Assembly: GCA_023101725.1 (NCBI GenBank)
Contig: JALJCO010007852.1
Location: 1 to 64,000 of the forward strand
Direction: 5' to 3'
DNA: 64,000 bases
Source: Atherinomorus stipes
Taxonomy: Eukaryota > Chordata > Actinopteri > Atheriniformes > Atherinidae
Shown: positions 14,501-63,544 of the stretch, piece after piece
Layout of the letters: every line of letters starts with the position of its first letter
Numbering within the stretch: the stretch's first letter is position 1
Notes under the pieces: model-generated
The model's database searches: none
What the model saw: the letters and a program-made list of their open reading frames with translations, nothing else
What the model was told of the DNA's origin: nothing
Position numbers and translations under genes: made by a program

Positions 14501-15383
14501 AATATATATATATAAATAAATTATTTATACTCTCAAATCAAAGAAGGAAAAAAAATCAGCTGTCAGTTTAAAAAAGTCATATTGACAAAAGTAATAAGAA
14601 ATAAAAACTCTGTGAAAAATTATGACATTATATTGTATGTATGTATGTTGGTCCACTGTTTATGGGATAGATGCTCTAATGTGTCTTGGACAGTTTTATT
14701 TGTTTTTTTTAATTATCATTTTCAACCACTATTCAAATGCAACATTATTTTACACTAAATTATAATTTTGTAAAATTTTATTTATTATTAGTTTTATTTA
14801 GTTATTTGAATTACTATTGTGAATTTAGCATTTTTAACATTTTTAACATAGGTTATGGTAAGAAGAATCATGATAAAAATGTTCATCTGTTTTTTTCTCC
14901 TTTAATTGCTTTAAATTTTAGTGATTGCTTTAACTGGGACTGCAGATGGAAATGAACGTATTACTCTTTGAGATATCCCTGTCAAATAAATACATAAATT
15001 CATTCATACCTGTTGGATTGACAGTCTTAGAGCTGGACATGTAGTAGACGTTCTCTCCATCATTTGTGTCGCTGTGCTTCAGGCTGTTGACCTCCAGCAG
15101 GTGATCGGCCCATTTCTGGGCGGCTTCATTCAGCTCGCTGTTATAGGTCAGCGGGGGTGCGTTATGCATCGCCCTGTAGGAGTTGTGGGAGTCCAGGAAC
15201 TCCTTCAGGAAGCTTTTATCTGCAAAACAGACATGATACTCTGAATATATTTCCTCAGTGAGAGGAAATGAGTCATAGTGACACGAACAAAATGATGCAC
15301 AGATGCAGATCTGATGATGCATAATGTAACGGCTCTGAATGTAGAAAGGAATAGTTGGGAAACAGACTGTCCTCACCTGCCAT
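7416..15383 (-). CDS. Predicted triple-CAP-domain GAPR-1/GLIPR2-like protein (units C-B-A spliced together)
   Basis: CAP (SCP/PR-1) proteins of the GAPR-1 type are intracellular, often Golgi-peripheral. Three CAP units follow each other, and every junction fits phase-1 splicing. Exons (minus): 15,377-15,383 (from ATG), 15,010-15,219, 13,836-13,913, 13,544-13,693; linker 13,351-13,410, 13,161-13,187, 12,267-12,476, 12,090-12,167, 11,732-11,881; linker 11,533-11,592, 9,966-9,992, 7,978-8,187, 7,801-7,878, 7,416-7,591. All internal exons are multiples of three and the sum is 1,521 nt (506 aa plus stop). The gap from each CAP end to the next linker is only 133 or 139 bp, too short for a 3' UTR plus a promoter. 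Only the first unit has a TATA box. Alternative: three separate genes, each ending a few codons past the KG donor. Confidence 0.6.
8207..8552 (+). repeat. Dispersed fish repeat (CCGGAGAACCC box), copy 1
   Basis: Contains GATCCAGTTCAGGGTTGCTG, ACAGGTCGCCAGTCTGTCGC, GGTGGGAGGAAGCCGGAGAA and GGGGAGAACATGCAAACTTC, all hallmarks of a very common vertebrate and invertebrate dispersed repeat. An opposite-strand copy is at 25,375-25,585 and a small piece at 9,757-9,825. It sits in a CAP intron. I do not recognise its class with certainty. Confidence 0.7.
8587..9756. repeat. Fold-back MITE with a second MITE inserted (8,883 to about 9,630)
   Basis: The left part reads TCTCATCACACTCAACATAA and the right part has its reverse complement, ending GAGTTTTTGCAGTG, so the outer element is a large inverted repeat. 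Its centre is occupied by another element beginning TTAAAGGTGCCATGACAT. Both lie in a CAP intron and neither has coding capacity. The right end of the inner element is not sharp. Confidence 0.55.
10364..10578. repeat. Palindromic MITE M2, copy 1
   Basis: A 215-bp near-perfect palindrome from ATGGGCTATATGCACAACTC to GAGTTGTGCACATAGCCCAT, with arms meeting at ACACCTGGATTAATCAG. Other copies: 23,284-23,508 and 41,415-41,640. It is inserted within the M1 MITE. Confidence 0.85.
10801..10890 (+). repeat. GAAA microsatellite
   Basis: About 20 units of GAAA/AAAG with a slightly irregular start. It lies in the loop of the M1 element. Confidence 0.95.
11732..13410 (-). CDS. CAP unit B with linker exon (middle CAP domain)
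   Basis: The linker exon (13,351-13,410) has an acceptor ending CATCCATCACAG and encodes a short acidic, Pro-rich stretch [19 protein letters not shown], in frame with exon 13,161-13,187 (SETKPKMA) and with the CAP exons. Tetrad and boxes are intact: [46 protein letters not shown]. Introns next to its last two CAP exons are nearly identical to those of unit A, so A and B are the youngest pair. No TATA box precedes the linker. If translation ran past the KG donor the frame would stop at 11,685. Confidence 0.85.
12477..13160. other. Intron of CAP unit B
   Basis: Contains an AT-rich stretch with a TATACATA microsatellite near 13,068-13,100. No other gene is seen. Confidence 0.6.
13544..15383 (-). 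CDS. CAP unit C (first CAP domain of the triple gene)
   Basis: The start ATG lies in the 27-bp exon 15,377-15,403 and gives [18 protein letters not shown]; human GAPR-1 also begins only a few residues before its HN-YR helix. Motifs in order: [32 protein letters not shown] (tetrad His and first Glu), [15 protein letters not shown] (second Glu), [17 protein letters not shown] (second His, CAP1 box) and [11 protein letters not shown] (CAP2-like). No signal peptide or membrane segment is seen. The last exon carries AAAG-gtgaaa, a phase-1 donor; if it is not used the frame stops at 13,509. The large intron 14-15 kb holds an AT-rich repeat and a Tc1-type MITE fragment. Confidence 0.85.
13914..15009. 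other. Intron of CAP unit C with TA repeat and MITE fragment
   Basis: Holds a TA-rich microsatellite at about 14,482-14,518 and, at about 14,640-14,900, a fragment resembling parts of 45,102-45,613 and 56,905-57,380 (shared TGTCTTGGACAGTTTT, AAATTATAATTT and TTTATTTATTATTA). Confidence 0.5.
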
Positions 15384-15540
15384 CTTTGGTTTGGTTTCAG
15401 AGGCTGAAATGAAATAAAGATGAAGTTAATGACAATAATCAGCAGCATTTCCTGGTGTGCATGATCCTTGTTGTCAGACATGAGAGTGATTTCAGTGAAT
15501 CTTGCAGCATGAAGACAAACATCCTCCTGTGAGTCCTCAC

Positions 15541-15600
15541 CTGGTTCAGGTCTGGTTGAGTCTCAGCTCCTCTGTCTGTGTTGAAGCTGGTATTTATGGA
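15541..15600 (-). promoter_or_regulatory. TATA promoter and 5' UTR exon of the triple CAP gene
   Basis: The minus strand has CCATAAATACC (15,590-15,599) followed within about 30 bp by the non-coding first exon, which ends CCTGAACCAG at donor GTGAGG (15,541). The CAP gene at 39 kb has the same arrangement (TATA-like at 39,831-39,838), and similarity continues about 450 bp upstream. No ATG opens in frame before MADKS. The transcription start is inferred. Confidence 0.6.
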
Positions 15601-16513: not shown

Positions 16514-16529
16514 GGAAATGCACCTGTCC
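16514..16529 (+). repeat. Target-site duplication, left copy
   Basis: GGAAATGCACCTGTCC, identical to 20,400-20,415, directly flanks the G-rich element. Confidence 0.92.
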
Positions 16530-16947
16530 GAGTGCTTGATGGCTATGGATCCCTGGCGGTTGACTTGGGGGGGGGGTCTGGGCTGCCTCGCCGCTGGGGG
16601 CGGGGCTGTATCCAGCCCGATGGGGGGCATGAGGGTCAGCGGTTGGGGCTGCTCTGCGGCGGTGGGCGGGTCGCTGGTGGGGCCCTGGCCGGTGGCTGTC
16701 GGCTGGCGCCGGGTGGCCGGGGTCGTCCCGGGGCGGGGGGGCGGGGGGCCCTGGGCCCCGGTGCTCCGGGGTGGCCCCTGCCTCCGGGGCCGGGGGACCC
16801 GGCTTGGCGCTGGGGGGGGCGGGCCGGCGGGGCGTGCCTCCTCTGGATTTGGCCGGTCCTCACGACCTGGTGACGTCTGGTCACTGCGCCGGGGCGCCTC
16901 TGCTGTGTGCGTGCGGGTGTGTGTGCTGGTGGGGGTGTGTGTGTGTG

Positions 16948-17213
16948 GTGGGGCTGGGGGGTGTATCGTTGTCGTGTCTGTGTCGGGATGTGGGCATCCG
17001 GGATGTTGGTGTCGCGGGAGCGGCCGTGTGGGGGGTGTGGATTTCCCCTGTGCTTGTCCTGCGTGTGGGGCTCTGGGGGTCGCGGACGGGGCTGCGCTTT
17101 CCGCCGGGGTGCTTGGTTTTCGGCGGACCCGTGGTCATGTCGTGTCGTATCGATGTTGGGGTGTCTGGCGTGGCTGTCGGGGTGTGGGGTTTTGTCCATA
17201 TCGTTCAGCTCTA
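16948..17213 (+). repeat. hAT-type MITE copy 1, A-to-G hypermutated
   Basis: Aligns without large gaps to the 265-bp MITE at 52,205-52,469. The left end reads TGGGGCTGGGGGGTGTATCG where the reference has TAGGGCTGAAAGATATATCG. I count about 68 A-to-G changes, about 8 others and no G-to-A. The right end, CCATATCGTTCAGC, is nearly unchanged. Confidence 0.92.
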
Positions 17214-17570
17214 GTGTGTGGAGGTGGGGGGTTGCGGGGTGGCCGGGTCTTTTCCACGCCGGGTGCCTGTCCCGCCTGGCCGCTGTGTCGGTTGGGGCTG
17301 GCCTGCGCTGGTGGTCTCGTACGGGTTGGTCTCGCGTGGTCCGGGGGCTGGGGGCGGTGGACTTGTGGCGTGGGGGGGCTGGTGGCCCCGCGGTCCCCGT
17401 CCTTGGTATGTGTAGGTGGGTGTGTGACTGGAGGGGGGGCGTGAATGCGGTTGTGTGTGTGTGTGGCTGCCTGTGGGGGGGTGTGGAGATGGGTGGGTGG
17501 GTGGGGGTGCATGGATGATGGGTGTTTGGGTGCGGGGGTGGTGGTGCATTGGTGGGGTTTGGGTGTGTCA

Positions 17571-17632
17571 GGTTGGGGGGGGGGGGGGGGGGAGGAAAGG
17601 GGGAGAAAAAGAAAAAGAAAAAAAAAAAAAAA
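17571..17632 (+). repeat. Poly(G) and A-rich tract
   Basis: A run of about 18 G followed by a GAAAAAGAAAAAG-type tract. The A-rich part shows that the A depletion of this element is not uniform. Confidence 0.8.
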
Positions 17633-19022
17633 TAGCAGCTCTGCGTGCCTCTTGGGGGGTTTGCGAGGCCTGGGGATGTTGGGCCGGTGACTCTGGCCCC
17701 TCCGCCGACCCTTTCCGCTTCCGTCCCTTTTCCCCCCTCCCTGGCCTGGCGTGGTCGAGCGCCCCCAGGGGCTGAGGCTGGCCCCTCTGTGCTGGACGCC
17801 GGACGCCGGGCCGTGGGGGCGGCCATGCCTGCCCTTTCTGCCCTGGGGGGATCCCGGGAGGCAGGGGTACCTAATGCCGGTAACGGCTCTTCTTCCAGGG
17901 GGGAATTCATACCCCCCTGGTCTCCCTTCCCAAGACCCCCCCCCCCCCTGCTCTACCTCACACACACACACGTAGGGTTTTGGGGAGGGAGCGTGTCAAG
18001 CGGGCGTGGTGAGGGAGGGCACCAAAGTGCCTTTGCTTGCCACGTCTAGAGGCAGCCTGCTCCCCAGTTTTAACCACACTTAGACACCTAAACACATAAA
18101 ATAACAACAGCTCACAACCACTTCTGAGGGGCGGGCCATATAGTGTGTGGTAGGAGGGAGGGGCCGGTTGGGGGGACATGCCCCCTACGCGACCCCACTC
18201 CCGGCATGACTTGGTACTGCCCCTTAGTTTTAACTGCAAACAACACACATCTTACACACACAGTCATGAGTGGGGGGTGGGGGGGGGACAGGGTCCTTTC
18301 ATACCCCGGTCTCCCGGGCGCTACTGGGGGGAGGGGGGGACAGTGGCTACTTCACGCGCCAGTGGTTAAGGCTGGCTGCATTGCGGGGGATCTGCTGGCC
18401 TGGGGGATGCCTGGCCTGCTGCGTCCGGGGGTGGGGGATGGGGGGGGTGGTGGTGGGGGGAACGTGTTGGGGGCTTGGAACTCGCGGCTCCTTCCCCGGC
18501 CCGAGCTACCACTCAGGAGGCACGAGGGCATGGGCAAGAGAGAGGTGGGGATGTGAGAATAATAAATGAGAGTGTGAAAGAGGAAATGTGGGAGGGAGGA
18601 ACTTGGGCTGGAAGAGGGAGGAGATGTGGGTAAGTGGTTGAAGGAAAGGGGGGATGGAGGAAGGAGTGGCATGCTCGTGAGTGTCTAGTAGGGATGGTCA
18701 TGAGGGGCTGAAGGAAGGAAGGGCGGGAGTGTGATAGGTCAGAGGGATGGGCGGGGCTGGACATGTAAGGGGGGGACTGTATGGGGTATTGGGGGTATAG
18801 GGAGGTGGGGGCGTATGTGTGGGGGGGTGGGGAGGGGTTGGTGCAGTTATGTGGGGGGAGTGCATGTGTGTGTTAGAGGGTATGAGGAGGTGGGGGTAGG
18901 TGTGGACGGTAGAGGGAGGAGAGTGTTGGGGGTGGAGAGAGGAGTGAGTGTGGGTATGTAAGGTCAGAGAGCGGAGTGGGTGGGTGTATGCGTGTGTGGG
19001 GGGGGTACACGGAGGTGTTGGG

Positions 19023-19287
19023 TAGGGCTGGGCGGTGTGGGCGGAGGTTCGTACCTCGGTATTCGTGCCGGGCATCTTGGTGTCGGTGCGGTGCGGTGTG
19101 GCTGCGGGTTGGTTGGGGGCCGGGCGCTTTGGTGGGGGGTGCGGTTTTGTTTGTGGCTTCCGGGGTTTTTTGTGCGGGGGCGGGCGCAGGGGGATCTGTA
19201 TCTTGTATGTGGTTGCTCTTGCGGTATTGATGTCTTGGGTGCCTGTGTCTCGATGTGGGGGCGGTGACGGTATATCTTTCAGCCCCA
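19023..19287 (-). repeat. hAT-type MITE copy 2, inverted, hypermutated on the same strand
   Basis: Read on the minus strand it begins TGGGGCTGAAAGATATACCG and ends CGCCCAGCCCTA, aligning over its full 265 bp to 52,205-52,469. Here the MITE-sense differences are mainly T-to-C and most A residues are kept. On the plus strand this is again A-to-G, so the bias follows the host element's strand, not the MITE. Confidence 0.9.
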
Positions 19288-19820
19288 GTGTTGGGGTAGG
19301 TGTGTGGGGAGTGTGTGTGTGAGCGTGGTGGCGGGGTAGGGGGTGGGAGAGGTGGTGGCGCCCTGGTGTCAGGTGTATCAGGGACTTTGGGGTGGGGGCT
19401 GGCCTGCCCTGGGGGGGCGTCGTCTGGGGGGTCCGGTCCTCCTGGGTTTCGGTTGGGCCGCCCGGGTCCGGGGGGGGGTGGCTGCTCCTGGGCGCTTGGG
19501 CCCCTGGGCCCGGCGCTGTCTCCGCTCCGGGGGACGCCCGGCGCCCGGTGGGGTCGGCAGCTGCTGGTCTTGGTCCGCTGGGGCCTGGGCCTCCAGACTG
19601 CGGGGGGCTCCGGCTGGGGCCGCTTTTTGCCGCCCTTCGGGGGATGCATGTCCGCTCTTTGGGGGGGGGGGGTAGCTGGGATCTGGGCCTCTGGGTGGCT
19701 GCTGGGGGCCTGGGTCGCGAGCCTTGCGGGCTTCCTCCTCCTTGCAGAGACGAGGCTGCATCTGCATGACTGTATCACCACGGAGCACCCTTTATTATGC
19801 ATGTTGACACTGTGACACTG

Positions 19821-19931
19821 CTTCCCATTGCGATGACTAGGTCGTACCTCTTCTTTACTTCCCATTGCGATGACTAGGTTGTACCTCTTCTCTACTTCCC
19901 ATTGCGCTGACTAGGTTGTACCTCTTCTCTG
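19821..19931 (+). repeat. Three 37-bp tandem repeats
   Basis: Units start at 19,821, 19,858 and 19,895, each beginning CTTCCCATTGCG and containing TGACTAGGT and GTACCTCTTC. Confidence 0.9.
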
Positions 19932-20249
19932 CGTAGTTCTGCGTGTGTTTGTATGATCTGAGGATATTTAAGCCACCTGCAGGTACTCCTGTAGGGGATT
20001 GCTTGTTTTGTTTTCCAACAGAGACCTTGGTTGTTTAGGGATCGCGGTACAGATGTACCAGTGAACTGTGTAAGTGGATTCATGTTTTCTCTTCTCTCTC
20101 TCTTCCTCTTCCTTACTCCTCTCTCTCTGTTTCACTTTCTATCATTACCTCTATTCACTTTCATTTCTCCCTTGTCAGGCCCAGCAGTATGAAATGGAAT
20201 GGTGTAATAGACAAATGTTTAAATAAAGAAATAAAATGAATAAACATGA

Positions 20250-20289
20250 TATCAAGTGGAGCCTTATGTTCATAAAGCTCCGCTTGATA
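20250..20289 (+). other. 3' hairpin near the poly(A) tail of the retroposed element
   Basis: TATCAAG pairs with CTTGATA, GGAGC with GCTCC and TATG with CATA, around a two-base loop. A 3' stem-loop is what some LINE reverse transcriptases recognise, so this may have helped mobilisation; that role is inferred. Confidence 0.6.
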
Positions 20290-20363
20290 AAGCAAAACTG
20301 TTCAACAGAATAAAGCAATCAGATTTCCATTCTGCTTGCTTCAATGCTGGACAGGACAAGTAA

Positions 20364-20364
20364 G

Positions 20365-20401
<37 letters not shown>

Positions 20402-20415
20402 AAATGCACCTGTCC
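20364..20415 (+). repeat. Poly(A) tail and right target-site duplication
   Basis: About 36 A residues (20,364-20,399), then GGAAATGCACCTGTCC (20,400-20,415). AATAAA motifs lie upstream, the last at 20,309. Confidence 0.92.
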
Positions 20416-27019: not shown

Positions 27020-30000
27020 TCAAACAAAGTCTGATCTAATTGGTCTAATGTACTCAATCCAACTCGCCCAGATTCTTTCAAATTTGTCTGTTTCCAATCT
27101 CAAAGAAAACGTCAATTTTTCCATCACATATATATTATGCATAACATCAATCCAGTCCTCAACCTCTGGTGGCTCATTCTTCATCCATTTTCTGGTAATT
27201 GCTTTTTTACTTGCAACCAACATTATTCTATAAATTTGTTTGTCACCAGGTCTTGTTAAATCTATTTCCAATTTCCCAAAGTATAATGTATGAAGTGTAG
27301 GTGGAAGGTCAACCCTCAGTATTTTATCCATACACTTTTTAAGCTCTTGCCAATAGCTGCGAATGAGGGTACAACACCAGAACACGTGGTAATGATCAGC
27401 TTTTTCAGCGCCACACAATCGCCAACACTTTGTGTCACGGTATTTTATCTGTGATGGTGTTTTAAAGAATCTTATGATGCTTTTCCACCCATGTTCTCTC
27501 CAAGATAATGAGCAAGTTGTTCTCCACTGCTGTTCGTTTATCTCCTCCCATTCAGCCTCAGATATGGCAACATCTGCCTCCCTTTCCCATTTCTCTTTTA
27601 TATATGTTGAACTGTCCCGCTTTAAGTTTTCCACTCCCCTGTATAATCTCGAAATCAGCCTTTTTCCTGGTTTAGATTCATAAGCCAAAATGAACAACTC
27701 TATCATTTCTAACCCACTTCCTGTTATAGTTGCCCTTATTATTTGCTCTAGATAATGTTTCATTTGCAAATACCTGTACTGATCCAGATTTGCTAAGTTG
27801 TATTGATCCTTCATATCTTGAAAACTTTTAATCTCCTTCTTTTTTAGGAGTTCCCAAAATATTGTAGGTCCCTGGTCCCAATTTTTAAAAGTCTTATCCA
27901 TTCTATTCGGGGTGAAATCTGAATCATACCCAATCCATCTTAATAATCTGCATTGAATAGTCATGTCATTTTTAGTGATCAACTCAAACCAAATCTTAAG
28001 TGATATCTCCAACCAAGGGTTTGTCCCTTTTCTAATATGTTTTCTCAAGTTGCTATCCCCTAACACTGCTTGTATAGGGACTTCATCTGTTGTGCTTGCT
28101 TCAATTTCTTTCCATCTTGCTGAGTAGGAGGGGTTATATATGTTAGCCAATATCTTTATTTGTGCCGCCTGGTAATAGCTCTTCAAGCATGGAAGTGCAA
28201 GACCTCCTTTATTTCTAGGCAACTGCAGCGTTCTATACCTAATCCTTGGTTTCTGCCCCTGCCAGATATACCTCGAAATCATTCTATCCCATTCTCTGAA
28301 TTCCTCGTCTGTCACTTCCACAGGTAAACACTGAAACAGGTAAAGAAGCCTTGGTAATACATTAATCTTGACCACCTCCACTCTTTGTGTTATGCTCATA
28401 TAAGGAATCAGATTCCATCTACAAATATCAAATTTAATCTTACTAATAAGTGGTTCATAATTCGCAGATTTTAATTGTCCTAGATCTTTAGGTATATTAA
28501 TTCCCAGGTATTTTATTGAGTTGGATTCCCAATTTATCCTGTAAGTATCTCTAATATCTTGGGCTGGTGTATAATTGAGAGCAACCACCTGAGTTTTCTG
28601 TATATTTATTTTATAGCCGGATAGGTGACCATAGTCTGAAAGGGTTGTCATCAGTGCAGGGAAGGATGTATTTGGATTTGACAAATATATTAATATGTCA
28701 TCTGCGAATAAAGCTATTTTCTGCTCTCGTCCCCCTATGTTTATACCTGTTATATTCTCATTTTTAGTTATCCAATTGCTCAGGGGTTCCAGAAAAATGG
28801 CAAAAAGGAGTGGACTCGCTGAGCAACCCTGACGACAACCTCGTTCTAATGTAAAGGAGCTTGAGAGACTCCCATTTATTCTAATCCTAGCTGTTGGTTT
28901 ATCGTACAGAGCCTGTATGACCTTAATAAATGACTTGTGGAACTGAAACCGCTGTAATACACTATATAAAAAATCCCACCCCACAGAATCAAATGCTTTT
29001 TCAGCATCAATTCCCACCATTACCATCTCTGCCTGATTTTTAATCACATGCTGCATCACATGAAGGGTGCGCCTGATATTGTCTTGCGTCTGTCTGTTTT
29101 TTATAAAACCTGTCTGATCTAATTGGATTATTTCTGGCATAATTACCTCTAACCGTCTTGCTAAAATGGCAGTAAACAATCTGTAATCTTGGTTAAGGAC
29201 ACTAATAGGTCTGTAATTAGAACACTCCTGCACATCCTTTCCTTCCTTAGGAATCACAGAGATTATGGCTTCTTTCCAGGAGATCGGAATTTCTCCCCCC
29301 TTCAGCACCCAGTTGAACGTTTTCTGCAAAAGTGGGGTTAATATTGCCCTAAATGATTTATACCATTGAGCAGTGTACCCATCTGAACCCGGTGACTTGT
29401 TGGTCTTAAGATTTGAAATTGCTTTATTTATTTCTTCTACTGTGATTTCGGTCATTAAAGCCTTATTCTGTTCTTCCGTTACAATTGGTAAATTTAGATT
29501 CTCGAGAAATTGATGAATCTGAGTTTTATTTTTAGCTTTTGGTTGAGTATATAGGTTTCTGTAATAAGTTTCAAAGCACTTTTGTATCTCTTCTGTTTTA
29601 TTCACTGTTAGTCTCGTAAGTGGATCTCTAATTTTATAAATGTTATTTTTGGCTTGCTGTTTTTTTAATTTATATGCCAGTAATTTTGTTGACTTACCTC
29701 CCACTTCATAATATCTTTGCTTTGTAAACAATACCTTTTTTTGAATATCCTGCGCATAAATCTCATTGATCTCGGCCCTCTTTTTTTTTTAATTTCCTGA
29801 TTTATATTTTCTTCCAGTTTGTCTTTATGCTCTCTTTCTAATCTTTTCAGGTCTGATTCTAATGTGTTAAGCTTTAACAATCTTTGCTTTTTAAAATATG
29901 CTGATTTTGCTATTATCTTCCCTCTCATCACAGCCTTACATGCATCCCAAACCATAGGTGGAGATACCTCTCCATTATCATTATCCTCTATATATAACTG

Positions 30001-30799
30001 AAGTTCCCTCATTATTTCTTCTTTTGTGTTTCCTTTTAGTATATTCGAATTTAATCTCCAAAATGTTGTTTTTTTTCTCTCCCACCAAACGTAATGTTAA
30101 ATAAATGGGGCTGTGGTCTGATAGATCCATTACTCCTATTTGACATTTTTCCACCCTATGCCTATCTTTATTATACATCAGGAAGTAATCAATCCTGGAG
30201 TACAAATTATGTGGTGATGAGTAATAAGTATAGTCCTTACCTGTGGGATTAAAATCCCTCCACACATCTATAATTCCTAGTTCAGACATAAGTGCCTTCA
30301 CTTTTTTACTAATTGCACTTTTTTGTATACCACCTACAGATGAATCTAGCTGTGGGTTAAGTCTTTGGTTTAAATCCCCCCCGACAATCAAAATTCCCTC
30401 TGCCTCTGAAGTCATCAAATCAAACATCTGTCTGTAAAAATTCCAAACTGAACCTGGTGGAGCATATATATTAAGAAATGTTACCATCTCTCCCTCTAAT
30501 TTTCCCTTAACCAAAATATACCTGCCTTCTTTGTCCTTTATCACAGATACTTTTTCAAATGAGTTCTTTGCTGAAATCAAAATGGCCACCCCCCTCCGGT
30601 GTCCTGATTTGTAAGAGGCAGAAAAGACTTGATTATAACCACTCCTCTTCAGCTTAGCATGCTCTTTCTCCGTTAGATGAGTCTCCTGTAATAACACCAC
30701 CCCGACACCGCCATTTTTCATTTTACTTATTATCTTATTTCTCTTAATCGGATTGAGTACACCATTAACATTATATGAAGCTACTTTAATGCATGCCAT
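27020..30799 (-). pseudogene. L1 ORF2 (endonuclease-reverse transcriptase), two single-base frameshifts
   Basis: About 1,260 codons. The APE-type endonuclease comes first: MACIKVASYNVNG, QETHLTE, IYAPPGS, GGDLNQRLNP, SRIDYFL and SDHSPIY, all catalytic boxes present. The frame shifts in a run of eight T (plus 30,069-30,076), continues through MRELQLYIEDND and WDACKAVMRGKII, and shifts again in a run of ten T (29,781-29,790). The remaining 903 codons hold RT motifs NYRPISVLNQDYR, TGFIKNRQTQDNI, GIDAEKAFDSV, GCRQGCSASPLLFA and ALFADDILIY (catalytic Asp pair), then a thumb with IKYLGINIPKD and a C-terminal Cys-containing part (CWRLCGAEKADHYHVFWCC). Either a young pseudogene or homopolymer sequencing errors. 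Confidence 0.9.
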
Positions 30800-31233
30800 C
30801 AGTCTCTGACCCTGTTTTCAGTCCTTCCCTTCATGTTTACACCCCTTTTGCTACACGAACAATAATGAACTTTATACAAACTAGAACTGTTTAACATAAC
30901 ATTTAAAAAAAGTACAAATCGAACTTCCTTACATGAAGTCTGAATAGTGACCTTTGATGAGCTCTGATGTTTAGTCCGCTCAGAGAGATATCCTCTGCTC
31001 CCTAAGGACAGAGGGCCCTCCTTGTTTGAAGCAGCATTGTCCATAAGTCCACAGCAGCTTTAATTGCTATCCCGACATCCTTAGCTTAAGAGGATATACC
31101 TTTAACAAATTAGATCAATGAAACACGCTGCCATTCTAACAAAAATAATTTAAAAAAAGACACGTTTCTCACCTGGTACCCCTAAAAAGTTAAAAATGCC
31201 CAGTGACTCGCCGTTCACCTTAGAGTTCCATCA

Positions 31234-32304
31234 TCATGTGTCTGTCTGGTTTCTCCTGTAGGCTTGCAGTTTCTGTCTGTACCCCGGTTGTCTCTGCGTC
31301 GTTCCAGCACCATTCTTAGCCCGAGCTGTCGTCCACATTAACCGTCCCATCCGCTCCGTCCAGTTCTCAATCGGTTTCACGACTTCCACCTGAAGCCCAC
31401 GAGCCACCATGTCCTTTGTTGCCTCCTCAGCCGTGTTGTAAACGCGCGTCTCTCCCTCATAAAACACCCGGAGCTTAGCTGGGAAAGGCGTCTGGAAGCG
31501 TATGTTCTTCGCACGCAGCACTCGTTTTGCCTCGATGTATTCTTTACGTCTTCTCAGGACATCCGGAGCATAATCATGGTCCAAAAACACCTTTCTTCCC
31601 TCGTAGACGAAACCCTTTCTCTGCCACGCTATCTTGATGATTTCTTCTTTAATCCGATAACTCTGCAACTTCAACACGATGGATCTAGGCGGGGAATCTT
31701 TGGGAGGTTGTGTTACCAATGCCCGGTGAGCTCTTTCAATTCTCAGCTCGAAAGTTGGGGGTAGCTCAAGCTTCTCCCTGAGGAGTTTTTCGACAAAGCT
31801 TACCATCGACTGAGCGTTTCCCTCCGCTCCTTCCTTCACTCCGTGGATCCGTATATTCTCTCTCCTCTCGCGACCCTCTAGATCCGTCAGTCTTGTCTCG
31901 ACCTGCTTCTGGAGCTCCACCAGCTCCAGTGTGGCCTCCTCCAGGTTCTGAGCTCGCTCCTCCGATTCCACAACCCGCTTTTCAACGTCGTCAATTCTGT
32001 TGTTAGTCTTTTTGATGTCATCTTTGATTTCTTTCATGTTTTCGAGATTTTCCCGGCGAAACTCCCGTATCTCTTGAAGAATCGTTTCCAGGTCTGCCAT
32101 ACTTTCCGAGTATTCTTCTTCTTCTTGACTTTGTTGCTTTGCTAGCTTGGTGTTGTTCACTCTCTCGCCTGCTGACTCTGCTAGCCCTTCTGCTAGCGCT
32201 TCGTGCTCTCCGGCTAGCTCAGTTAACTCGGCTTGCTTATTTGGCTCGAAGTTTAGACCAGCGTTTTTATTTAACCTCCGGCCGCTTCCTCGCGTCTTTG
32301 GCAT
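31234..32304 (-). CDS. L1 ORF1 protein, intact (356 aa)
   Basis: Nucleic-acid-binding protein that coats L1 RNA as a trimer. Residues about 70-160 are a long heptad coiled coil (EFRRENLENMKEIKDDIKKT, RIDDVEKRVVESEERAQNLE). An RRM-like domain starts at RERRENIRIHGVKEGA, and a C-terminal domain includes RIERAHRAL and ARGLQVEVVKP. Length fits vertebrate ORF1p (about 340-370 aa). The start MPKTRGSGRRLN lies 120 bp from the 5' end of the element. No breaks are visible. Confidence 0.9.
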   Translation of the reverse strand: MPKTRGSGRRLNKNAGLNFEPNKQAELTELAGEHEALAEGLAESAGERVNNTKLAKQQSQEEEEYSESMADLETILQEIREFRRENLENMKEIKDDIKKTNNRIDDVEKRVVESEERAQNLEEATLELVELQKQVETRLTDLEGRERRENIRIHGVKEGAEGNAQSMVSFVEKLLREKLELPPTFELRIERAHRALVTQPPKDSPPRSIVLKLQSYRIKEEIIKIAWQRKGFVYEGRKVFLDHDYAPDVLRRRKEYIEAKRVLRAKNIRFQTPFPAKLRVFYEGETRVYNTAEEATKDMVARGLQVEVVKPIENWTERMGRLMWTTARAKNGAGTTQRQPGYRQKLQAYRRNQTDT

Positions 32305-32441
32305 TGCCCACTCTATTTCACACTCACAGTTTTCACTTATTTCTATGTTTACTGGGCTTTCTTAGTCAAAGTGTCGGGGAGCTTTCTTCTTATGCTGCCG
32401 CCATGTTGAAGTTCGACCGGAAGTCCTGGATCCGGTCTTTT

Positions 32442-46100: not shown

Positions 46101-46410
46101 TCAGAGAACATGGAGGCCGTGTCCTGCAGACTACTCGGGAGCATCCAGCTTGTCATCAGTGGACAGTTGAAAAGCTGCATCTCTGATGGGATGGGGTTGT
46201 TTTAGTGTCTATGGCGACAGCAGCTTCCACATTTGTGAAGCTCCATCAATGCTGGAAAGTACATGGAGGTTTTAGAGCAACATGCAGGGAAGACCTGCAG
46301 GTTTCAGCAAGACCTGGACCACATACTGGATCCATCACATCGCAGCATAGCCATAACAGCACAGGAGAAGAGCACGGTTGCTAAACTGGCCCGCCTGCAG
46401 TCCAGAGTTC
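46100..46410 (+). pseudogene. Tc1-like transposase fragment (source of the following minisatellite)
   Basis: Reads SDGMGLF, SSINAGKYMEVLEQH, CRFQQDLDHILDPSHRS and then VAKLARLQS. This matches the catalytic core of a widespread fish Tc1-like transposase, whose usual order is SDGMG, INAE-Y-QVLEQH, FQQDNAKPHTA and V-NWPACSPDLSPIEN. It has several stops, and reading continues directly into the tandem repeat at the WPACSPD codons. Confidence 0.7.
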
Positions 46411-47305
46411 AGCTGCTGAACTGGTCTGCCTGCAGTCCATAGTCCAGCTGCTGAACTGGTCTGCCTGCAGTCCAGAGTCCGGCTGCTGAACTGGTCTGCC
46501 TGCAGTCCAGAGTATGGCTTCTGAACTGGCCTGCCTGCAGTCCAATGTTTGGCTGCTTAACTGGTCTGCCTGCAGTCCAGAGTCCGGCTTCTGAACTAGC
46601 CTGCCTGCAGTCCAAAATTAAGGTCCTGAAACGACCTGCCTGTAGTCAAGACTCCAGCTGCTGAACTGACCTGCCTGTAGTCCAGAGTCTAGTTGCTGAA
46701 CTGGTCTGCCTGCAGCCCAGAGTTCAGTTGCTGAACTGACCTGCCTGCAGTCCAGAGTCTGGCTGCTGAACTGGTCTGCCTGCAGTCCATAGTATGGCTT
46801 CTGAACTGGCCTGCCTGCAGTCCAAAGTCCAGCTGCTGAAGTGACCTGCCTGCAGTCCAAAATTAAGGTCCTGAATCGACCTGCCTGTAGTCCAGACTCC
46901 AGCTGCTGAACTGACCTGCCTGTAGTCCAGATTCCAGCTGCTGAACTGACCTGCCCGAGTCCAGAGTCCAGCTGCTGAACTGACCTGCCTGCAGTCCAGA
47001 ATCCTGCTTCTGAACTGACCTGCCTGCAGTCTAAAATCTGGTTGCTGAACTGACCTGCCTGTAGTCCAGATTCCAGCTGCTGAACTGACCTGCCCGAGTC
47101 CAGAGTCCAGCTGCTGAACTGACCTGCCCGAGTCCAGAGCCCAGCTGCTGAACTGACCTGCCTGCAGTCCAGAATCCTGCTTCTGAACTGACCTGCCTGC
47201 AGTCTAAAATCTGGGTGCTGAACTGACCTGCCTGTAGTTCAGACTCCACCTGCTGAACTGACCTGCCTGCAAGTACGAGTCTGCGTGCTAAATCAATCAG
47301 CCTGC
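46386..47305 (+). repeat. 35-bp minisatellite, about 26 units
   Basis: The unit is close to GCTGAACTGGTCTGCCTGCA plus GTCCAGAGTCCAGCT, with variants such as CTTCTGAACT and CCTGTAGTCC. Higher-order repeats are visible (about 46,860-47,000 resembles 47,030-47,230). The open frames on the minus strand are by-products of a period not divisible by three. Confidence 0.93.
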
Positions 47306-51069: not shown

Positions 51070-52965
51070 CCTTGTTGTGACAAAAAGTGATTGTCTTCCA
51101 AAAACTGATTAAACAGCCGCTTGCTGTGTTGTGGGTGGGTTGTGGTTAGGGTTAGGTACGGGCAAAGGTAAGGCTCAGGGTTAGATTTTATCGTGCTCTC
51201 ATGGGTGTGGTGGTGTCGTGTAGTAACGTCGGTACACGACACCCCCACTTAAAGGAGCCCTATCATGAAAAATGGACTTTTAAGAGCTTTTCAGCATGTC
51301 AGTGTGTTATTTCCTCATCAAGAAATGATTTAAATCGTTATTTTTCTTCATTCATGCATATTTGAGTAATCTACATGAATATTTAAACCAACGCTACCTC
51401 CCTGCAAACGACTGACTACCCACCCCGTTACGTATGAATGTGGCACCAATCACGAAAGTCCAAATGCGCATGCTCAGTATCGTAGCAAGACGCCCTCTGT
51501 TGAACAGAAACTCAGAGAATCCTATACACACTCTCTGAGGAAGAAACAGATTTCCTCAGAGACAAGCAGCCATCAGCTAACAGACGTTTGCTCCAGAGTT
51601 CAGGAGAAGTTTCTTCCTTTTTTTTTTTTTTTTTAAGCTCTAGAGGACAGCAAGTTGGGAAAAATGCAGTTACGTTCAGCGTGGTTATGTTCAGTGTGGG
51701 AGTGTATTTGTTGTACTGGATGAATCGACTTGCCAGAAGTGGTTGGATTTTAACTTCAGGAGCAAGAAAAAAAACTCAACTTTGTGTGTGAACTTCACTT
51801 CTGACAACTTCATGAATGTCGGGCAGTAAAGTGTTTTTTTCTCTGGGATTACTTCTGAAACATGACGCAGTTCCTGCTATAAAAACGCGCATGGACAGAC
51901 AACAACACTGGTGAGTCAACACATCTCTCAGCTCAATGCTGTTAGCCTATGATTTGTTCGCTAATTTACTTACTTGTCAGGGGTCTCTGTGGTACTTCTG
52001 TGGTACTGCGTGTACTTCAAACTCCATATGAGACTCTGGGTCGAGCGCATACAGCTCCATAACAGGCTGGTCTGTTTCATCCCGTCGATCGGAGTCCGAT
52101 TATCCATCAATGTTTACAAGATCCATGTGAGTGCTGCATAGCTCAGCGTTAACTGTTAGCCTATGATTTGTTCGCTAAATTACTTGCTTGTCAAGGGTCT
52201 CTGTTAGGGCTGAAAGATATATCGTTATCGTATCTATATCGAGATACGAACATTCAAGATATTAATATCGCTAAAGCAACTATATAAAGGATATAGATTT
52301 CCCCTGTGCTTGTCCTGCATATAAAGCTCTGGAAGTCACAAAAAAACCTGCACTTTCCACCAAAGTGCTTGGTTTTCAACGAACCCGTAGTCATATCGTA
52401 TCGTATCGATATTGAGATGTCTGGCATGAATATCGAGATATGAAATTTTGTCCATATCGTTCAGCCCTAGTCTCTGTGGTACTTCTGTGGTACTGCGTGT
52501 ACTTCAAACTCCATATCAGACTCTGGGTCGAGCGCATCCAGCTCCATAACAGGCTGGTCTGTTTTATCCCGTCGATCGGAGTAATTATCCATCAATGTTT
52601 ACTACTAACATCCACATGAGAGCTGCCGGTGCCGGTGTTACAGACAATTCTGTGACCCTTCAGAATAAGTGTCTCTTCCGGGGCGACGTCATGAAATGGG
52701 CGTAAAACATGCTGCAATTGGTCGAGAGCTCTGCGGTTCAGGACAGTCAGCCATCTTACTTCCGTGTTGGAAATTAGACACATAGAAAAACTAATATTTA
52801 ACACCAAATTAGTTTCTATAGTAACGATGGGAACATATCTAGCTTATAAATGCCTATATTTGACTTTTGGAACATTTGAAAAGCATGGTACAGCTCCTTT
52901 AAGGACGTCCTCTTGGCTGTTTAATCAGTTTTTGGCAGACAGTCACTTTTAGGCACTACAACGCC
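51070..52965. repeat. Outer fold-back element carrying two nested insertions
   Basis: AAGTGATTGTCTTCCAAAAA with CTGATTAAACAGC (51,085-51,118) is mirrored by GCTGTTTAATCAGTTTTTGG with CAGACAGTCACTTTT (52,917-52,950). The inner element 51,249-52,902 starts TTAAAGGAGCCCTATCATG and ends CATGGTACAGCTCCTTTAA. It contains a tandem duplication (51,941-52,136 and 52,155-52,620), and the second duplicate is interrupted by the hAT MITE. Confidence 0.7.
52205..52469 (+). repeat. hAT-type MITE, unmodified reference copy
   Basis: TAGGGCTGAAAGATATATCG to ATATCGTTCAGCCCTA, 265 bp, flanked by GTCTCTGT at 52,197-52,204 and 52,470-52,477 (8-bp target duplication, the hAT size). The neighbouring tandem duplicate (51,979 onward) shows the uninterrupted GGGTCTCTGTGGTACTTC, an empty site. 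It is the unedited counterpart of 16,948-17,213 and 19,023-19,287. Confidence 0.95.
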
Positions 52966-56860: not shown

Positions 56861-58152
56861 AGGGGCATTAGTTTGCTTAGTGGCAAAACCAGCTCTGGCT
56901 GTAACTAATGAGTGCGTTTGTGCTTGAAAGTTTACATACCCTTCAATTAAAATGGGACAAAAGTATTTTAATAATGAAAATTTTCTGAAGATCATGACAT
57001 TGATTTTGTATTGTGGTTCAACAGAATTATTAAAAACAACTAAACAAAAAAAATAAAACAAGCAAACAAGCATGCAACACTTTGAGACAATCACTGCAAT
57101 CAGGTGTTTTCTCCAATGTTCAATCAGACTTCTGCACTTGTTTACACGTATTTTGGTTCACTGTTCATGAGCAAGGTGCTTTAATTCGTCTGGGACAGTT
57201 TTGTTTGTTTGTTTGTTCGTTTTTTTAAAATTATATATAAAAAAAAATCAATATTTCATTTCGCTAAATTATAATTTAGTAATTTTTTTATTTATTATTA
57301 CTTTTTCAGTTTCATGTAATTTGAATAACTGTTTTGAATTTAGCTTTTTCTTTAATGGCAAACTGTAATTTTTTTATGTGAGATGAAGGCTTTTCAAATA
57401 AATCCCACTTTTTTTATTTGGAAATGTTTCATGACTACTGTTCAACTCTTCACGTGCATCTTTTCTCTGGTAGTTTGCTTTTATGGGACAGCAGAGAGCA
57501 GACATGTTGTGCAAACAGCCGCCACTGAACAGAGAGCAAAACGAGGCTGGAGGAAACCTGATCGCACCAGTTTCATATCTCCGCCACACAGAGAGCTGAT
57601 AAGCAGACGTTTGCAGTCATTGCTGCAGTAGAATCGATTTGAGACGCAGATCTCATGGACTAATAAACTGCTCTCTGCTATGGTTCTGGGTCAAACTGCT
57701 GCTGTGAACAGGACCAGAACTTTTCAAGTGAGTGTTTCCAAACACGGAGTAGATTGACCCATATGAATTTAATCTTTGATAATTAAGATTTTCCTTTTTT
57801 TCCTTTTTAATTTGGGCTGAGCCGTAGGTCCTTAATTGCCACTTCCAGTCGTGCATGTGCGTTCATGTCATTTCAGGGAGCTGTGTGTGTCCTGAACAGC
57901 CTGCAGAGTAATACCTCAGCGGTGGAGCAGCTGCATGGGCGGAAAAGAAATCCGGGGCTGCAGCTCCGGGCCATGCAGGGATTTCTTCACCGCACCGGCT
58001 TTGCTGTACGTGCACACACAACAGGGAAAATGATCCCTTGATGTGGCATGCCCAGTCTGTTGAATAGGATTGTTTTTAAAGAAAGAAAGTGGGAGCCACA
58101 TTTTTCAGTAACCTAATAATTACTGGTCTGATTTGCATATTGGGAGCGGGAT
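56861..58152. other. MITE remnant and unique-looking DNA; no gene
   Basis: 56,905-57,380 is similar to the Tc1-type MITE at 45 kb (AAGTTTACATACCCTTCAAT, CACTGCAATCAGGTGTTTTC). The rest shows no gene. Confidence 0.4.
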
Positions 58153-58158
58153 AGGAAT

Positions 58159-58211
<53 letters not shown>

Positions 58212-59339
58212 TTTTTTTTTTTAAATTAAAAATTTTTAAAATACCATTTCATATTTAGTGGGGGGGAAAGGGAGAAAGGAAAGGAAAAGGGGAAAAAATA
58301 AAAAGGGAAAAGGGGAGAGAGGAGAGGGAGGGGGAAGAGAGAGAGAAGAGAAAACATGAATCCACTTACACAGTCACTGGTACATCTGTACCGCGATCCC
58401 TAAACAACCAAGGTCTCTGTTGGAAAAAAAAACAAGAACCCATAGGAGACTGAGGGGGTAAATATCCTCAGAAATACAAACACACGCAGAAAAGGGGAAA
58501 AAGGAAAAACGAGGGAAAAGGGGAAGAGGAAAAAGGAAACCACCGAAATGAAAGAAGAGAAGAAGAGGAGGACGTATCGTATGGAAGGGGAGAAAGTGTC
58601 AGTGAAAAAAAAAAAAAAAGGGGGTGCGGTGGGGATAAGATAATGAAGCTGAGCGTCCTGTGCGAGGAGGAGGGAGAAGGCCGGGAGGGCGGCCCCCCCC
58701 GGCCCCCCCAAGCCCCCGAGCGGCCCCGACCCCCCCCACCCCCCCACAGAGAGGCCACACGCGCCGCGAGGGGGAGCAGCCGCAGCCCCCGCCGCCGGGG
58801 CCCCCGGGCCCGAGGGCCCGGGCCCAGCGGACCCAGACCCGCCGGGGCGCCGCGCGCCCCGGGCGCGGCGCCCCCCCGGGGCGGAGGCAGCGCCGGGCCC
58901 AAGGGCCCAGCGCCCCCCGGCCCCCCCCCCCCCCCCGGCGGCCCGCCCGACACCCACCCCCCAGGGGCCCCCCCCCCACGCCACGCCGCCCCGCGGGCCC
59001 ACCCCCCACCCACACCCCCCCACACCACCCCACCCCGGCCCCCCCCCCCCCCCCCCCCACCCCGCCCCCCCACCCCACCCACACACACCCACCCCACCCA
59101 CCCCCACCAAAAGCTGGAGAAAAAACCCACACCGACCCCCCCCCCACAAAGAGACACAAACCACAACAACAACAACACAACAACAACAACCAACACAAAA
59201 CACCCCCCCCGCGCGCCCCGCACCCAAAAAAACCCCAAAAAACAAAAAAAACCCCCCCCCCCCCCCAAACCCCCCGCCCCCCACCAACCCGCCGCCCCAC
59301 CCCACCGCAACGACACCCAAAAAGCCCGCCCAGAAACCC

Positions 59340-59346
59340 AGGGCCG

Positions 59347-59383
<37 letters not shown>

Positions 59384-59480
59384 ACCCCCCCCCCCCCCCC
59401 CACACACACCCACACCCCCCCCCCCCCCTCCCTCCCCCCCCCCCCCCCCCCCCCCTCCCCCCCCCCCCCCCCCCCCTCCC

Positions 59481-59523
<43 letters not shown>

Positions 59524-59553
59524 TCTAACACACACCCCCCCTCCCCCCACATC

Positions 59554-59600
<47 letters not shown>

Positions 59601-59680
59601 TTCCCCCCCCCCCCCCCCCTCCCCCCCCCCCCCCCCCCCCTCCCCCCCCCCCCCCCTCTCTCCCCCCTCCCTCCCTCCCT
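59340..59680. repeat. Poly(C)/CT low-complexity core
   Basis: Almost pure C with scattered T and A over more than 300 bp. No information can be read from it. Confidence 0.9.
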
Positions 59681-59916
59681 CCCTCCCTTCCTCCCCTCCC
59701 TCCCAACCATACCCACCCCACCCTCCCCCCCCTCCCCCTCCTCCCCCCCCCCCTTCCTTCACCTCCTCCCCCTTCCCCCCTCTCCTCCCCCTTCCCACCT
59801 TCCCTCCTTCTCTCTTTCTTCCTCATTCATTCTTTTCCCATATCCTCCCATCCCCTCCCCTCTCCCCTGCCCATGGTGTCTCGTGGCTGGGGGGGGGGCG
59901 GGGGGGCAAGCCCCCG

Positions 59917-59958
<42 letters not shown>

Positions 59959-60647
59959 ACGCAGGCCAGGCCAGGCCAGGCCAAGCCCAGCAGCCCCGAG
60001 ATACCAACCCAGCCAGTGACCGCTGCCGCCTCCCCCCCCCCCCGCCGCGGCCGGGGCATGGGGGCATCGGGGCCCTGGCCCCCCACCCCCCCTCTCCTCA
60101 CATGTGTGTAGTATGTAAGATGTGTGTAGGTGAAATGTAAAGTTAGGGGGGAGCTGGGGGGGGGGGAGGTGTGGCGGGGGGGGCCCCCCCCCCGACCTCC
60201 CTCCCCCCCCCCGCCCCGATGGTCCAATGATGGGTTGTGTTGTTTAATTATTTATTGGGGTTTTATTGGAGGGTAGGGTGGCTATAAAGGGGTAGGGGCC
60301 TCCCTCTTCCGTCCCTCACCCCCCCCCGCCCCCCCCCCCCCCTCCCCCCCCCACACTCTCGTGTGAGGCCCAAAGGGGGGGGGGGGTGGGGAGGGGAGGG
60401 GGAGGAGGGGGGGGGGCCAGGGGGAAAGGCGTTAGGATCCGGCCCCCCGAGCCCGGTCGCCCTAAGGCCCGGAGCCCCCCGGGCACCGCCGGCGGGGGCG
60501 GCCAGCAGCGGGGGCCGCCCGCCCGGCGGGGGGTCGACCACAGCGGCAGGCAGGGGAGGGGGGAGGGGGAAGGAAAGGGGGGGGGGGGGGGGACAGAGGA
60601 ACCGGCCACAGTCCCCGGAATCCCAAAGCCCCGAGCCAACCTGAATG

Positions 60648-60678
<31 letters not shown>

Positions 60679-60687
60679 CCCCCTCTC

Positions 60688-60723
<36 letters not shown>

Positions 60724-61659
60724 ACCCCCCCACCCCCCCCAACCACCACCCCCACCCAACCCCCCCCCCCCCCCCCCCACACCCCCCCCCCCCCACCCAC
60801 ACACACACGCACACACCCCCACACGCAACACAACCCACCCCATACAACAAAGGCGCCCGTCCGCAACACACCCACCGCCACCGCCCAAGGACCCCGCCCC
60901 CGCCCCACCCGCAACCACCCCGCACGACCCCCCCGGACACGCGGGCCAACCAGACCAAACCGCCAGAGGGACAAGCGCCAGCCGCCCCCGCCGAGAAGGC
61001 GGCAAGCCCCCGCAGTCCACAAGCCGGGACAACGAGTGAACCAAACCCCCAAACCCCAAAACCCGAAGCCACCCCAAACCCAAAACACCCGACAGCGACG
61101 CAGGCCCCGAGAACCCAAAAAACACAGGACGCCAGCGGGAGCGCCGGCGCCGCAACGCGACCCCAGGCAAGCACAGGCCCAAAGGACACCCCCCGCACAC
61201 ACCGCAGGCGAAACCCACACAACCCCCACCCCCCACCCGACACAAACACAAACCCACACCCCAACACACACACACACACAACACCACAACACACCACACA
61301 CACACACCCACAGGCCCCAGCCGCAGAACAAACAGGCCGAGGGGGGACCAGCCAGAAGAGGGCGCACGCCCCCCCGGCCCGGAGGACGGCGCCAACCCGG
61401 CCCCCGCCGCCGGGCCGGGCGGCCCCCCGGGCCAGGGGCCCCGCCCCCCCCCGCCGCGGGGCCCCCCGGCCCCCGCCGCCCCCCCCCCCCCCGCGGCCCC
61501 GCCGGGCCGCCCGGCCGCCGCCCGCGCCACGCCACGCCCCCGGCGCCCACCGCGACAGCCCGCCCGCCGGGGCAGCCCCACCGCCGAGACCGGGCCAAGC
61601 CCCAGGAACCCCCCACCGGCGGCCCAAAATCGAGAGCTGAACAAAGGGGGAGGGATAAA

Positions 61660-63420: not shown

Positions 63421-63544
63421 GAGTCACACGCCAAACTATTCCCGCCGGAGCCGGGGGGCCCGGCGGCGCGGCGCCCCGGGGCGGGGCGGCCGGCGCAGGG
63501 AGGAAAGAAAAAAAAAAAGGGAAAAAAAAAAGGACAGGAATGTT

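Follow-up and report, generated by a model that had tools for sequence, protein, structure and literature searches.

A retroposed hairpin element in Atherinomorus stipes with dense A-to-G changes probably derived from ADAR editing

A 3.9-kb insertion with a poly(A) tail lies at positions 16514-20415 of the window, the 64-kb (64,000-nucleotide) stretch of Atherinomorus stipes DNA analysed here. It holds the same 265-bp MITE twice in inverted orientation, and on the transcript strand these two arms read G at 129 of the 165 positions (78%) at which a reference copy of the MITE has A (gapped alignment). This observation is confirmed and is stronger than first claimed. ADAR deamination of a hairpin RNA, followed by LINE-type retrotransposition into the genome, is its best explanation, and a likely one.

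Retroposition marks and fold-back structure

The insertion is bounded by identical 16-bp target-site duplications, GGAAATGCACCTGTCC, in exact direct repeat (16514-16529 and 20400-20415; 16/16 identical). On the plus strand, the 3' copy is preceded by a poly(A) tail of 35 A (20365-20399) and by a 3' tail external to the hairpin (19726-20364), which contains AATAAA motifs and a 37-bp unit repeated three times in tandem (19821-19931). A poly(A) tail together with a target-site duplication characterizes a LINE-mobilised retroposon. The earlier note held that an RNA copied from the plus strand had been inserted, and this holds up: it fits both marks as well as the strand and structure tests described below. 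By eye, the insertion nick site would read TTCC/AC, a pyrimidine/purine step that differs from the L1-type endonuclease consensus, TTTT/AA. The window also contains an L1-type LINE that encodes both an endonuclease and a reverse transcriptase domain, and the machinery that inserted the element was presumably L1-like. At gathering scores no Rfam family matched the window, viral contigs had no exact match to a 26-base piece taken from the tail, and P0121, a spurious open frame in an A-poor region, had no relative at E 0.001 among 7996 candidates scored.

There are two copies of the element in the window. The second lies on the minus strand at about 58160-63532 (annotated at 58160-61640) and aligns at 65% over 3739 columns (E 0); it has a poly-T at 58160-58222 on the plus strand and outer arms that are A-free on the transcript strand, in sequence of doubtful quality. 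Together, the two copies show that a family exists. The window yielded no copy of the element that is unedited or edited only in part.

The reference MITE (52205-52469, plus strand) is A-rich and 265 bp long, with short inverted ends that both begin TAGGGCTGAA and an 8-bp duplication, GTCTCTGT, at 52197-52204 and 52470-52477. Within the element, as the earlier note described, the RNA would have carried this MITE twice in opposite orientation: arm 1 at 16949-17213 (plus), flanked by GTGTGTGG at 16941-16948 and 17214-17221, and arm 2 at 19023-19287 (minus), flanked by GTGTTGGG at 19015-19022 and 19288-19295. The length below 1 kb and the 8-bp duplications at all three copies are those of a hAT MITE, the class to which we take it to belong. 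Since each arm keeps its own perfect 8-bp duplication, the arms look like two separate MITE insertions. Both pairs of duplications are A-free and identical within the pair.

The MITE arms are nested in a larger fold-back (16531-19725) that is formed by the sense RNA and largely not by the antisense. An A-poor 5' outer arm (16531-16846) opposes an A-poor 3' outer arm (19408-19725), both on the plus strand, an arrangement also seen in the RNA fold; their alignment has 171 G-C, 13 A-U, 84 G-U and 37 other oppositions and 24 gap columns. The inner arms (17638-17896 opposing 18283-18529, also plus) align with 129 G-C, 24 A-U, 49 G-U, 32 other and 38 gap columns, a pairing that is absent as long-range pairing from the minimum-energy fold. 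They enclose a loop (17897-18282, plus) of normal A content. For the sense RNA of 16530-19740 the folding energy is -1720 kcal/mol, compared with -1447 to -1488 for five local shuffles; the antisense, at -959, is also slightly below its own five shuffles (-914 to -938). Long-range pairs number 629 in the sense and 107 in the antisense fold. With wobble allowed, the fold-back alignment scores 1184.5, compared with 492-535 in six local shuffles, 442.5 on the reversed strand and 53 when wobble is disallowed. Across the 265 positions of the MITE duplex (ungapped) there are 126 G-U, 95 G-C, 31 A-U and 13 other oppositions; as DNA the arms are 48% identical, whereas RNA pairing is possible at 95% of opposed bases. 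The G-U pairs are split about evenly between the two sides (outer 47/37, MITE 68/62, inner 24/25), as expected if both arms were edited.

A-to-G changes and base composition

In the gapped alignment to the reference MITE, arm 1 reads G at 68 of 85 adenine positions and arm 2 at 61 of 80, and neither arm has a G to A. Other substitutions number 8 and 17, so that A to G makes up 129 of the 154 substitutions in the two arms; C to T occurs 6 times. The earlier claim of dense transcript-strand changes in both arms is thereby borne out. An ungapped alignment gives nearly the same counts (68/85 and 60/81); its only G to A lies in arm 2. A first alignment that included flanks (74/97 and 74/104) was discarded.

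To avoid sole reliance on the reference, we also scored polarity at sites where the arms disagree and the MITE agrees with one of them, assigning the change to the odd arm. This count excludes 8 sites where both arms share a base that differs from the MITE, 5 three-way sites and 1 gap. It yields 60 A to G in arm 1 and 59 in arm 2, against 9 changes of every other kind combined (C to T 2 and 4, others 3); neither T to C nor G to A occurs. Of the 129 A-to-G changes, 7 fall on the shared sites, 5 of them in arm 1 and the other 2 in arm 2; these more likely reflect differences between MITE copies than editing, and without them the level is 122/165 (74%). As a control, we used 31 other repeat pairs of the window (at least 80 bp and no more than 97% identical; the two element copies and a tandem array were excluded). 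Their A/G and C/T differences are balanced (325 vs 346), whereas for the two MITE arms the counts are 128 A/G and 13 C/T (Fisher p 8e-23 against the control pairs).

The direction of change is readable in the MITE parts only. There, comparison with the reference rejects C to U as the source of the wobble pairs. Elsewhere in the fold-back, G-U pairs of the outer or inner arms may stem from either change, and on the fold-back alignment alone the A-to-G and C-to-T models score equally. Scarcity of A is mostly a feature of the segments that pair. The A/T ratio is 0.18 in the outer, 0.20 in the MITE and 0.42 in the inner arms, against 1.10 in the loop (over 17871-18299) and 0.70 in the tail; the low ratios of 0.18-0.42 are those of the pairing arms, where ADAR would act on double-stranded RNA, with direction known from the MITE arms. 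The excess of T over A approximates that of G over C in the MITE arms (131, 135), inner arms (52, 43) and loop (-9, -12), and matches it more poorly in the outer arms (93, 123). An exception to A-poverty in duplex is the unexplained G/T-rich spacer at 17222-17600 (plus), which has an A/T ratio of 0.22 despite weak pairing with the other arm; a second spacer, 18520-19014, is G-rich and not A-poor. The earlier note described changes that fade toward the 3' end outside the MITE arms. This fade shows in composition only, and the first spacer departs from it. The note's picture also needs correcting in that the fold-back is larger than the MITE.

Editing and alternative explanations

If the changes arose by deamination of adenine in RNA, the deaminase was presumably ADAR. 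Adenines that would stay single-stranded in the self-fold of a lone MITE are edited at 33/40 sites in arm 1 and 24/31 in arm 2, just as frequently as those that would be paired in it (35/43 and 36/45). This disfavours the lone-MITE fold as the editing substrate and points to the long inter-arm duplex. The best-known mark of ADAR is avoidance of a 5' G, which the earlier note proposed as a test; no such avoidance is seen, as a 5' G precedes 32 of 129 edited and 5 of 30 unedited adenines (p 0.47). On the 3' side, U is commoner at unedited adenines (21/30 vs 47/129 edited; p 0.001, a contrast chosen post hoc from both neighbours). Human ADAR1 prefers a 3' G over C or A, which are about equal, and favours U least (PMC11019741), so the 3' pattern partly fits this enzyme. 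A 3' G is not enriched, however (22/129 edited, 5/30 unedited), while zebrafish editing sites do show such enrichment. For AT steps, a cross-strand exclusion of edits (9, 9, 14, 1) was considered, but the signal is too weak for use.

The earlier note proposed one heavily edited transcript captured by LINE machinery. Its core fits the strand and structure tests (plus-strand RNA, inverted arms, A-to-G changes, LINE-type insertion), but that a single transcript sufficed is less sure. A single complete ADAR reaction is reported to edit 40-50% of adenines (PMC11019741), a level that 129/165 exceeds even without the seven doubtful sites. Because of this excess and the lack of 5' G avoidance, both of which come more easily with repeated editing, editing over several cycles is favoured, and we infer that the element was transcribed, edited and reinserted more than once. 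In such a scheme, the element's hairpin RNA, being double-stranded, would have its adenines deaminated by ADAR. Each round would turn some A-U pairs into I-U; the DNA copy that followed would encode G-U, so that RNA folding would be retained, and leftover adenines could be edited in the next round until few remained. As a by-product, the arms would lose their character as DNA inverted repeats and keep their RNA pairing, as seen in the MITE part. A plausible, still tentative extension is a retrotransposon lineage with inherited, cumulative RNA editing, in which each cycle of hairpin, ADAR and reinsertion would add genomic G and which would end as a wobble-paired hairpin of non-palindromic DNA, resembling edited self RNA from birth.

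Capture of a single hyper-edited transcript, with no earlier edited generation, is a variant of the ADAR reading and shares in its probability; taken by itself, it seems rather unlikely. It is the simplest model, and one recent insertion fits the perfect target duplication and the pure poly(A). Near-complete editing of a palindromic repeat is also reported from zebrafish RNA (PMC8096273), a figure for unique sites of one repeat rather than per molecule. Besides the level of editing and the 5' neighbours, two observations oppose it: the related copy at 58160-61640 has A-free outer arms, though it is badly called, and the paired 8-bp MITE duplications are A-free, as if the MITEs had entered DNA that was already A-poor.

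Sequencing errors can imitate editing, as PMC2873906 warns, and much of the second copy seems to be a base-calling or assembly artefact. It looks badly base-called: 56 of the 73 substitutions in its tail relative to copy 1 equal a neighbouring base (35.7 expected), and same-base neighbours are in excess (ratio 1.14-1.64). Its fold-back does not rise above controls (186 vs 174-192 in ten shuffles), and its sequence quality led us to drop it as a second measured case of editing. Its extra 5' part, in a C=T alphabet, shows 58-67% matches across the whole window and was taken as low-complexity. In copy 1, the middle (17640-18520) likewise has a ratio of 1.37. In the MITE arms, by contrast, substitutions do not copy their neighbours (24/76 vs 26.0 expected in arm 1; 37/75 vs 33.0 in arm 2), the ratios are 1.00 and 1.10, and tail and flank are normal. 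Arm 1 has no indel, T, C and G are mostly preserved, and a palindrome read error is not expected to track the transcript strand in the two arms alike. It is therefore very improbable that the A-to-G pattern is an artefact of base calling or assembly.

Equally improbable is selection or ordinary mutation, by which a hairpin lineage would drift to G-U pairs, losing the unstable DNA palindrome and retaining the RNA fold. The contrast between RNA pairing and DNA identity in the MITE arms is what it would predict, but drift would be expected to use C to T too, and the MITE parts show 129 A to G against 6 C to T. Moreover, substitutions other than A to G total 25, C to T included, which leaves little time for drift. 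AID/APOBEC deamination of cytosines in cDNA, a known source of strand-biased changes in retroelements (PMC2873906), predicts G to A on the transcript strand, of which there are 0 (gapped) or 1 (ungapped), and having the wrong direction it carries almost no probability.

Significance and comparison with known systems

As a rule, RNA editing is not passed on to the next generation. This locus looks like an exception, and with changes at 129 of 165 adenines across the two arms it can be read without RNA data; if the ADAR reading is right, RNA editing would have been turned into heritable mutation. The structure suggests that a hairpin element could retain RNA pairing while shedding a destabilising DNA palindrome. 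If the lineage with cumulative editing is real, RNA editing would be a heritable mutator that both shapes and protects a mobile element. Should the family have many copies, these would provide editing states in a natural series, and an assembly alone could give germline ADAR specificity, the number of rounds each lineage went through and what becomes of long dsRNA.

SINEs and processed retrocopies are LINE-mobilised non-autonomous retroposons. The element resembles them in its poly(A) tail, its long target duplication and the lack of any visible reverse transcriptase of its own, and differs in its long fold-back body with two nested DNA transposons. Among open-access papers searched by listing and passage, we saw none that describes an ADAR-edited non-LTR element as a fixed part of a genome; few subscription papers and no bioRxiv preprints were covered.

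Several described systems share traits with the element. ANGEL, a palindromic hAT repeat of zebrafish, is edited in RNA at 62 of 63 adenines (PMC8096273); it is alike in its hAT type, long dsRNA and transcript-strand A-to-G changes, which in ANGEL affect nearly all adenines. Human ultra-edited Alu RNAs (PMC3197674) also show transcript-strand A-to-G in repeats that form long dsRNA. In both, the RNA is changed and the genome keeps A, whereas here the inserted genomic copy reads G. APOBEC "DNA editing" of retrotransposons (PMC2873906) likewise leaves strand-biased hypermutation in retrotransposon DNA, but as G-to-A clusters rather than A to G. Integrated retroviruses, namely BLV, with HTLV-2 and STLV-3 also named (PMC8025556), carry ADAR-type A-to-G clusters, in which A-to-I changes are fixed in DNA via reverse transcription. 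The BLV clusters comprise at least 7 changes within about 70 bp in three proviruses; the element described here carries 129 in two arms of an A-poor, multi-kb fold-back, and it is a poly(A)-tailed insertion rather than an LTR element, in DNA that is presumably of the germline.

Structure of the insertion and its inverted MITEs

Copy 1, the poly(A)-tailed element of about 3.9 kb at 16514–20415, is flanked by a 16-base target duplication, GGAAATGCACCTGTCC, that shows no mismatch between its two sides, and a run of 35 A directly precedes the right-hand duplication. These features bear out the insertion described in the earlier note, and the poly(A) and target duplication together suggest L1-like mobilization. 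The minus strand of the window carries an L1-type LINE (about 27020–32361) whose reverse transcriptase and endonuclease domains lie in one frame, with stops between them; a 375-aa frame upstream within it has no Pfam match. Among the 120 relatives listed for the reverse transcriptase frame, the 15 with an organism name are 14 teleosts and one ray, which points to a fish as the likely host. A 3′ end shared by copy 1 and this LINE is unsupported, since a window search with copy 1 (low-complexity filter on) gave matches outside copy 1 and its relative, copy 2, only through the two MITE arms. The window also holds frames with a DDE_3 transposase domain (648–1136) and a CAP (cysteine-rich secretory protein) domain (14930–15562).

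As had been noticed, copy 1 carries the same 265-bp MITE twice and inverted: arm 1 (16949–17213) and arm 2 (19023–19287) match the A-rich reference MITE at 52205–52469 in opposite orientations, each over 265 bases. The reference MITE is flanked by GTCTCTGT twice and has the same start, TAGGGCTGAA, as its complement; from this anatomy of ends and flanking duplication, we take it to be of hAT type. Each MITE inside copy 1 has its own perfect 8-bp duplication, GTGTGTGG and GTGTTGGG, and since these differ, the two most likely entered the ancestor of copy 1 separately, by MITE insertion. Both duplications are A-free and identical within each pair, which is at least compatible with MITE insertion into DNA already poor in A.

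A-to-G substitutions and the fold-back of copy 1

Substitutions were scored along the transcript strand, oriented by the poly(A) tail. In gapped alignments to the reference MITE, G stands at 68 of 85 reference adenines in arm 1 and at 61 of 80 in arm 2, confirming the dense A-to-G change reported for both arms; G-to-A changes are absent from both, and all other substitutions number 8 and 17, respectively. Ungapped counts are 68/85 and 60/81, with one G-to-A change. Because the arms face opposite ways, each MITE site with A in one arm reads T in its counterpart, and it is the A alone that changed: A to G is confined to arm 1 at 60 sites and to arm 2 at 59, compared with 9 sites for any other single-arm change. 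Seven of the 129 A-to-G counts probably reflect differences between MITE copies rather than editing, since the other arm agrees with them against the reference; without these, 122/165 remain. A regional mutational habit does not account for this pattern: 31 further pairs of repeats from the window, of ≥80 bp and ≤97% identity and lying outside the two element copies and the tandem array at 46379–47271 (25.6 copies of a 35-bp unit), show 325 A/G and 346 C/T differences and thus lack strand bias, against 128 and 13 in the arms (Fisher p = 8e-23).

Aligned to its own complement over 16531–19725 with G-U pairs allowed, copy 1 scored 1184.5, against 492–535 for six local shuffles, 442.5 for the reversed strand, and 53 without wobble. 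The predicted energy of the sense RNA (16530–19740) is −1720 kcal/mol (five local shuffles, −1447 to −1488), and that of the antisense RNA is −959 kcal/mol, only slightly lower than its shuffles (−914 to −938). The MITE duplex comprises 126 G-U, 95 G-C, 31 A-U, and 13 other positions; compared as DNA, the arms are identical at 126/265, and they are absent from the inverted repeats listed by the repeat finder. Outer arms (16531–16846/19408–19725) also oppose each other, as do inner arms (17638–17896/18283–18529) in the alignment, with G-U pairs about equally frequent in both directions; the minimum-energy fold does not contain the inner-arm pairing as long-range pairing. From the outer arms (0.18) and MITE arms (0.20), the A/T ratio rises to 0.42 in the inner arms, 0.70 in the tail, and 1.10 in the loop. 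The spacer at 17222–17600 is an exception to the duplex rule, as it is poor in A (0.22) although it lacks a good pairing partner, and the spacer at 18520–19014 is exceptional in being G-rich and not A-poor (1.16).

The hairpin base (16530–16531/19725) coincides with the 5′ end of copy 1, as if the fold had set the transcription start or a reverse transcriptase stop. In the unpaired tail, 19821–19931 consists of three 37-bp tandem units, the second and third being 95% and 89% like the first.

Copy 2 and sequence quality

Copy 2, on the minus strand from a poly-T at 58160 to about 61640, matches copy 1 at 65% over 3739 columns, and its outer arms contain no A in 629 transcript-strand bases. Its sequence looks mis-called, because 56 of 73 tail substitutions equal a neighboring base (35.7 expected), same-base neighbors are in excess (ratio, 1.14–1.64), 59347–59753 is scored as a C run with 76% matches, and its fold-back does not outscore shuffles. 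Copy 2 was used only as a sign of a family. Copy 1 lacks such marks in its arms, tail, and flank (ratio, 0.94–1.10); its middle, 17640–18520 (ratio, 1.37), was excluded from substitution counts.

The 5′ part of copy 2, upstream of the aligned stretch (61640–63420), is almost C-free on the plus strand (13 C in 62001–63000), with same-base neighbors in excess (ratio, 1.28); it is probably mis-called, G to A on the transcript strand being a possible alternative. A candidate target duplication of copy 2, GATAGGAATG (58150–58159) and GACAGGAATG (63533–63542), has one mismatch; if genuine, it would put the length of copy 2 at about 5.4 kb and make copy 1 the shorter of the two at the 5′ end. An exon-like stretch directly before copy 2 (57840–58010) may encode part of a folylpolyglutamate synthase, and copy 2 may lie inside an intron.

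Proposed editing substrate, enzyme, and number of rounds

Adenines unpaired in the fold of a lone MITE were edited as often as paired ones (33/40 versus 35/43 in arm 1; 24/31 versus 36/45 in arm 2), and the inter-arm duplex therefore fits as the editing substrate. Direction, strand, duplex, and an excess of 3′ U at unedited adenines (21/30, versus 47/129 at edited ones; p = 0.001, chosen after viewing both neighbors) point to ADAR as the deaminase; excerpts of PMC11019741 give U as the least favored 3′ neighbor for human ADAR1. Two results count against ADAR. Avoidance of 5′ G, which the earlier note had proposed as a test, and enrichment of 3′ G were both looked for at the A-to-G sites of the MITE arms, and neither was found; zebrafish editing sites show both patterns in excerpts of PMC8096273. 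The other is the editing level in the arms, 78%, or 74% without the seven doubtful sites.

Copy 1 is probably a genomic fossil of edited hairpin RNA, which is the best explanation of these data. The observation behind the earlier note is confirmed and extended. Its single-event version, capture of one hyper-edited transcript, is less likely than cumulative editing, since the level exceeds the 40–50% that excerpts of PMC11019741 give for a complete ADAR reaction on long dsRNA, and the weak neighbor preference is better explained by repeated rounds. Within the ADAR model, we lean toward several rounds, in which preferred adenines would be converted first and disfavored ones later; this would account for both the high level and the weak preference.

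The literature searched yielded no genomically fixed non-LTR element edited by ADAR; ADAR hyper-editing is on record there at the RNA level. Excerpts of PMC8025556 describe ADAR-type clusters in three BLV proviruses (at least 7 A-to-G changes in about 70 bp), and those of PMC2873906 ascribe retrotransposon G-to-A clusters to APOBEC. In a zebrafish palindromic hAT element, the most edited single repeat shown in the excerpts of PMC8096273, 62 of 63 adenines are edited.
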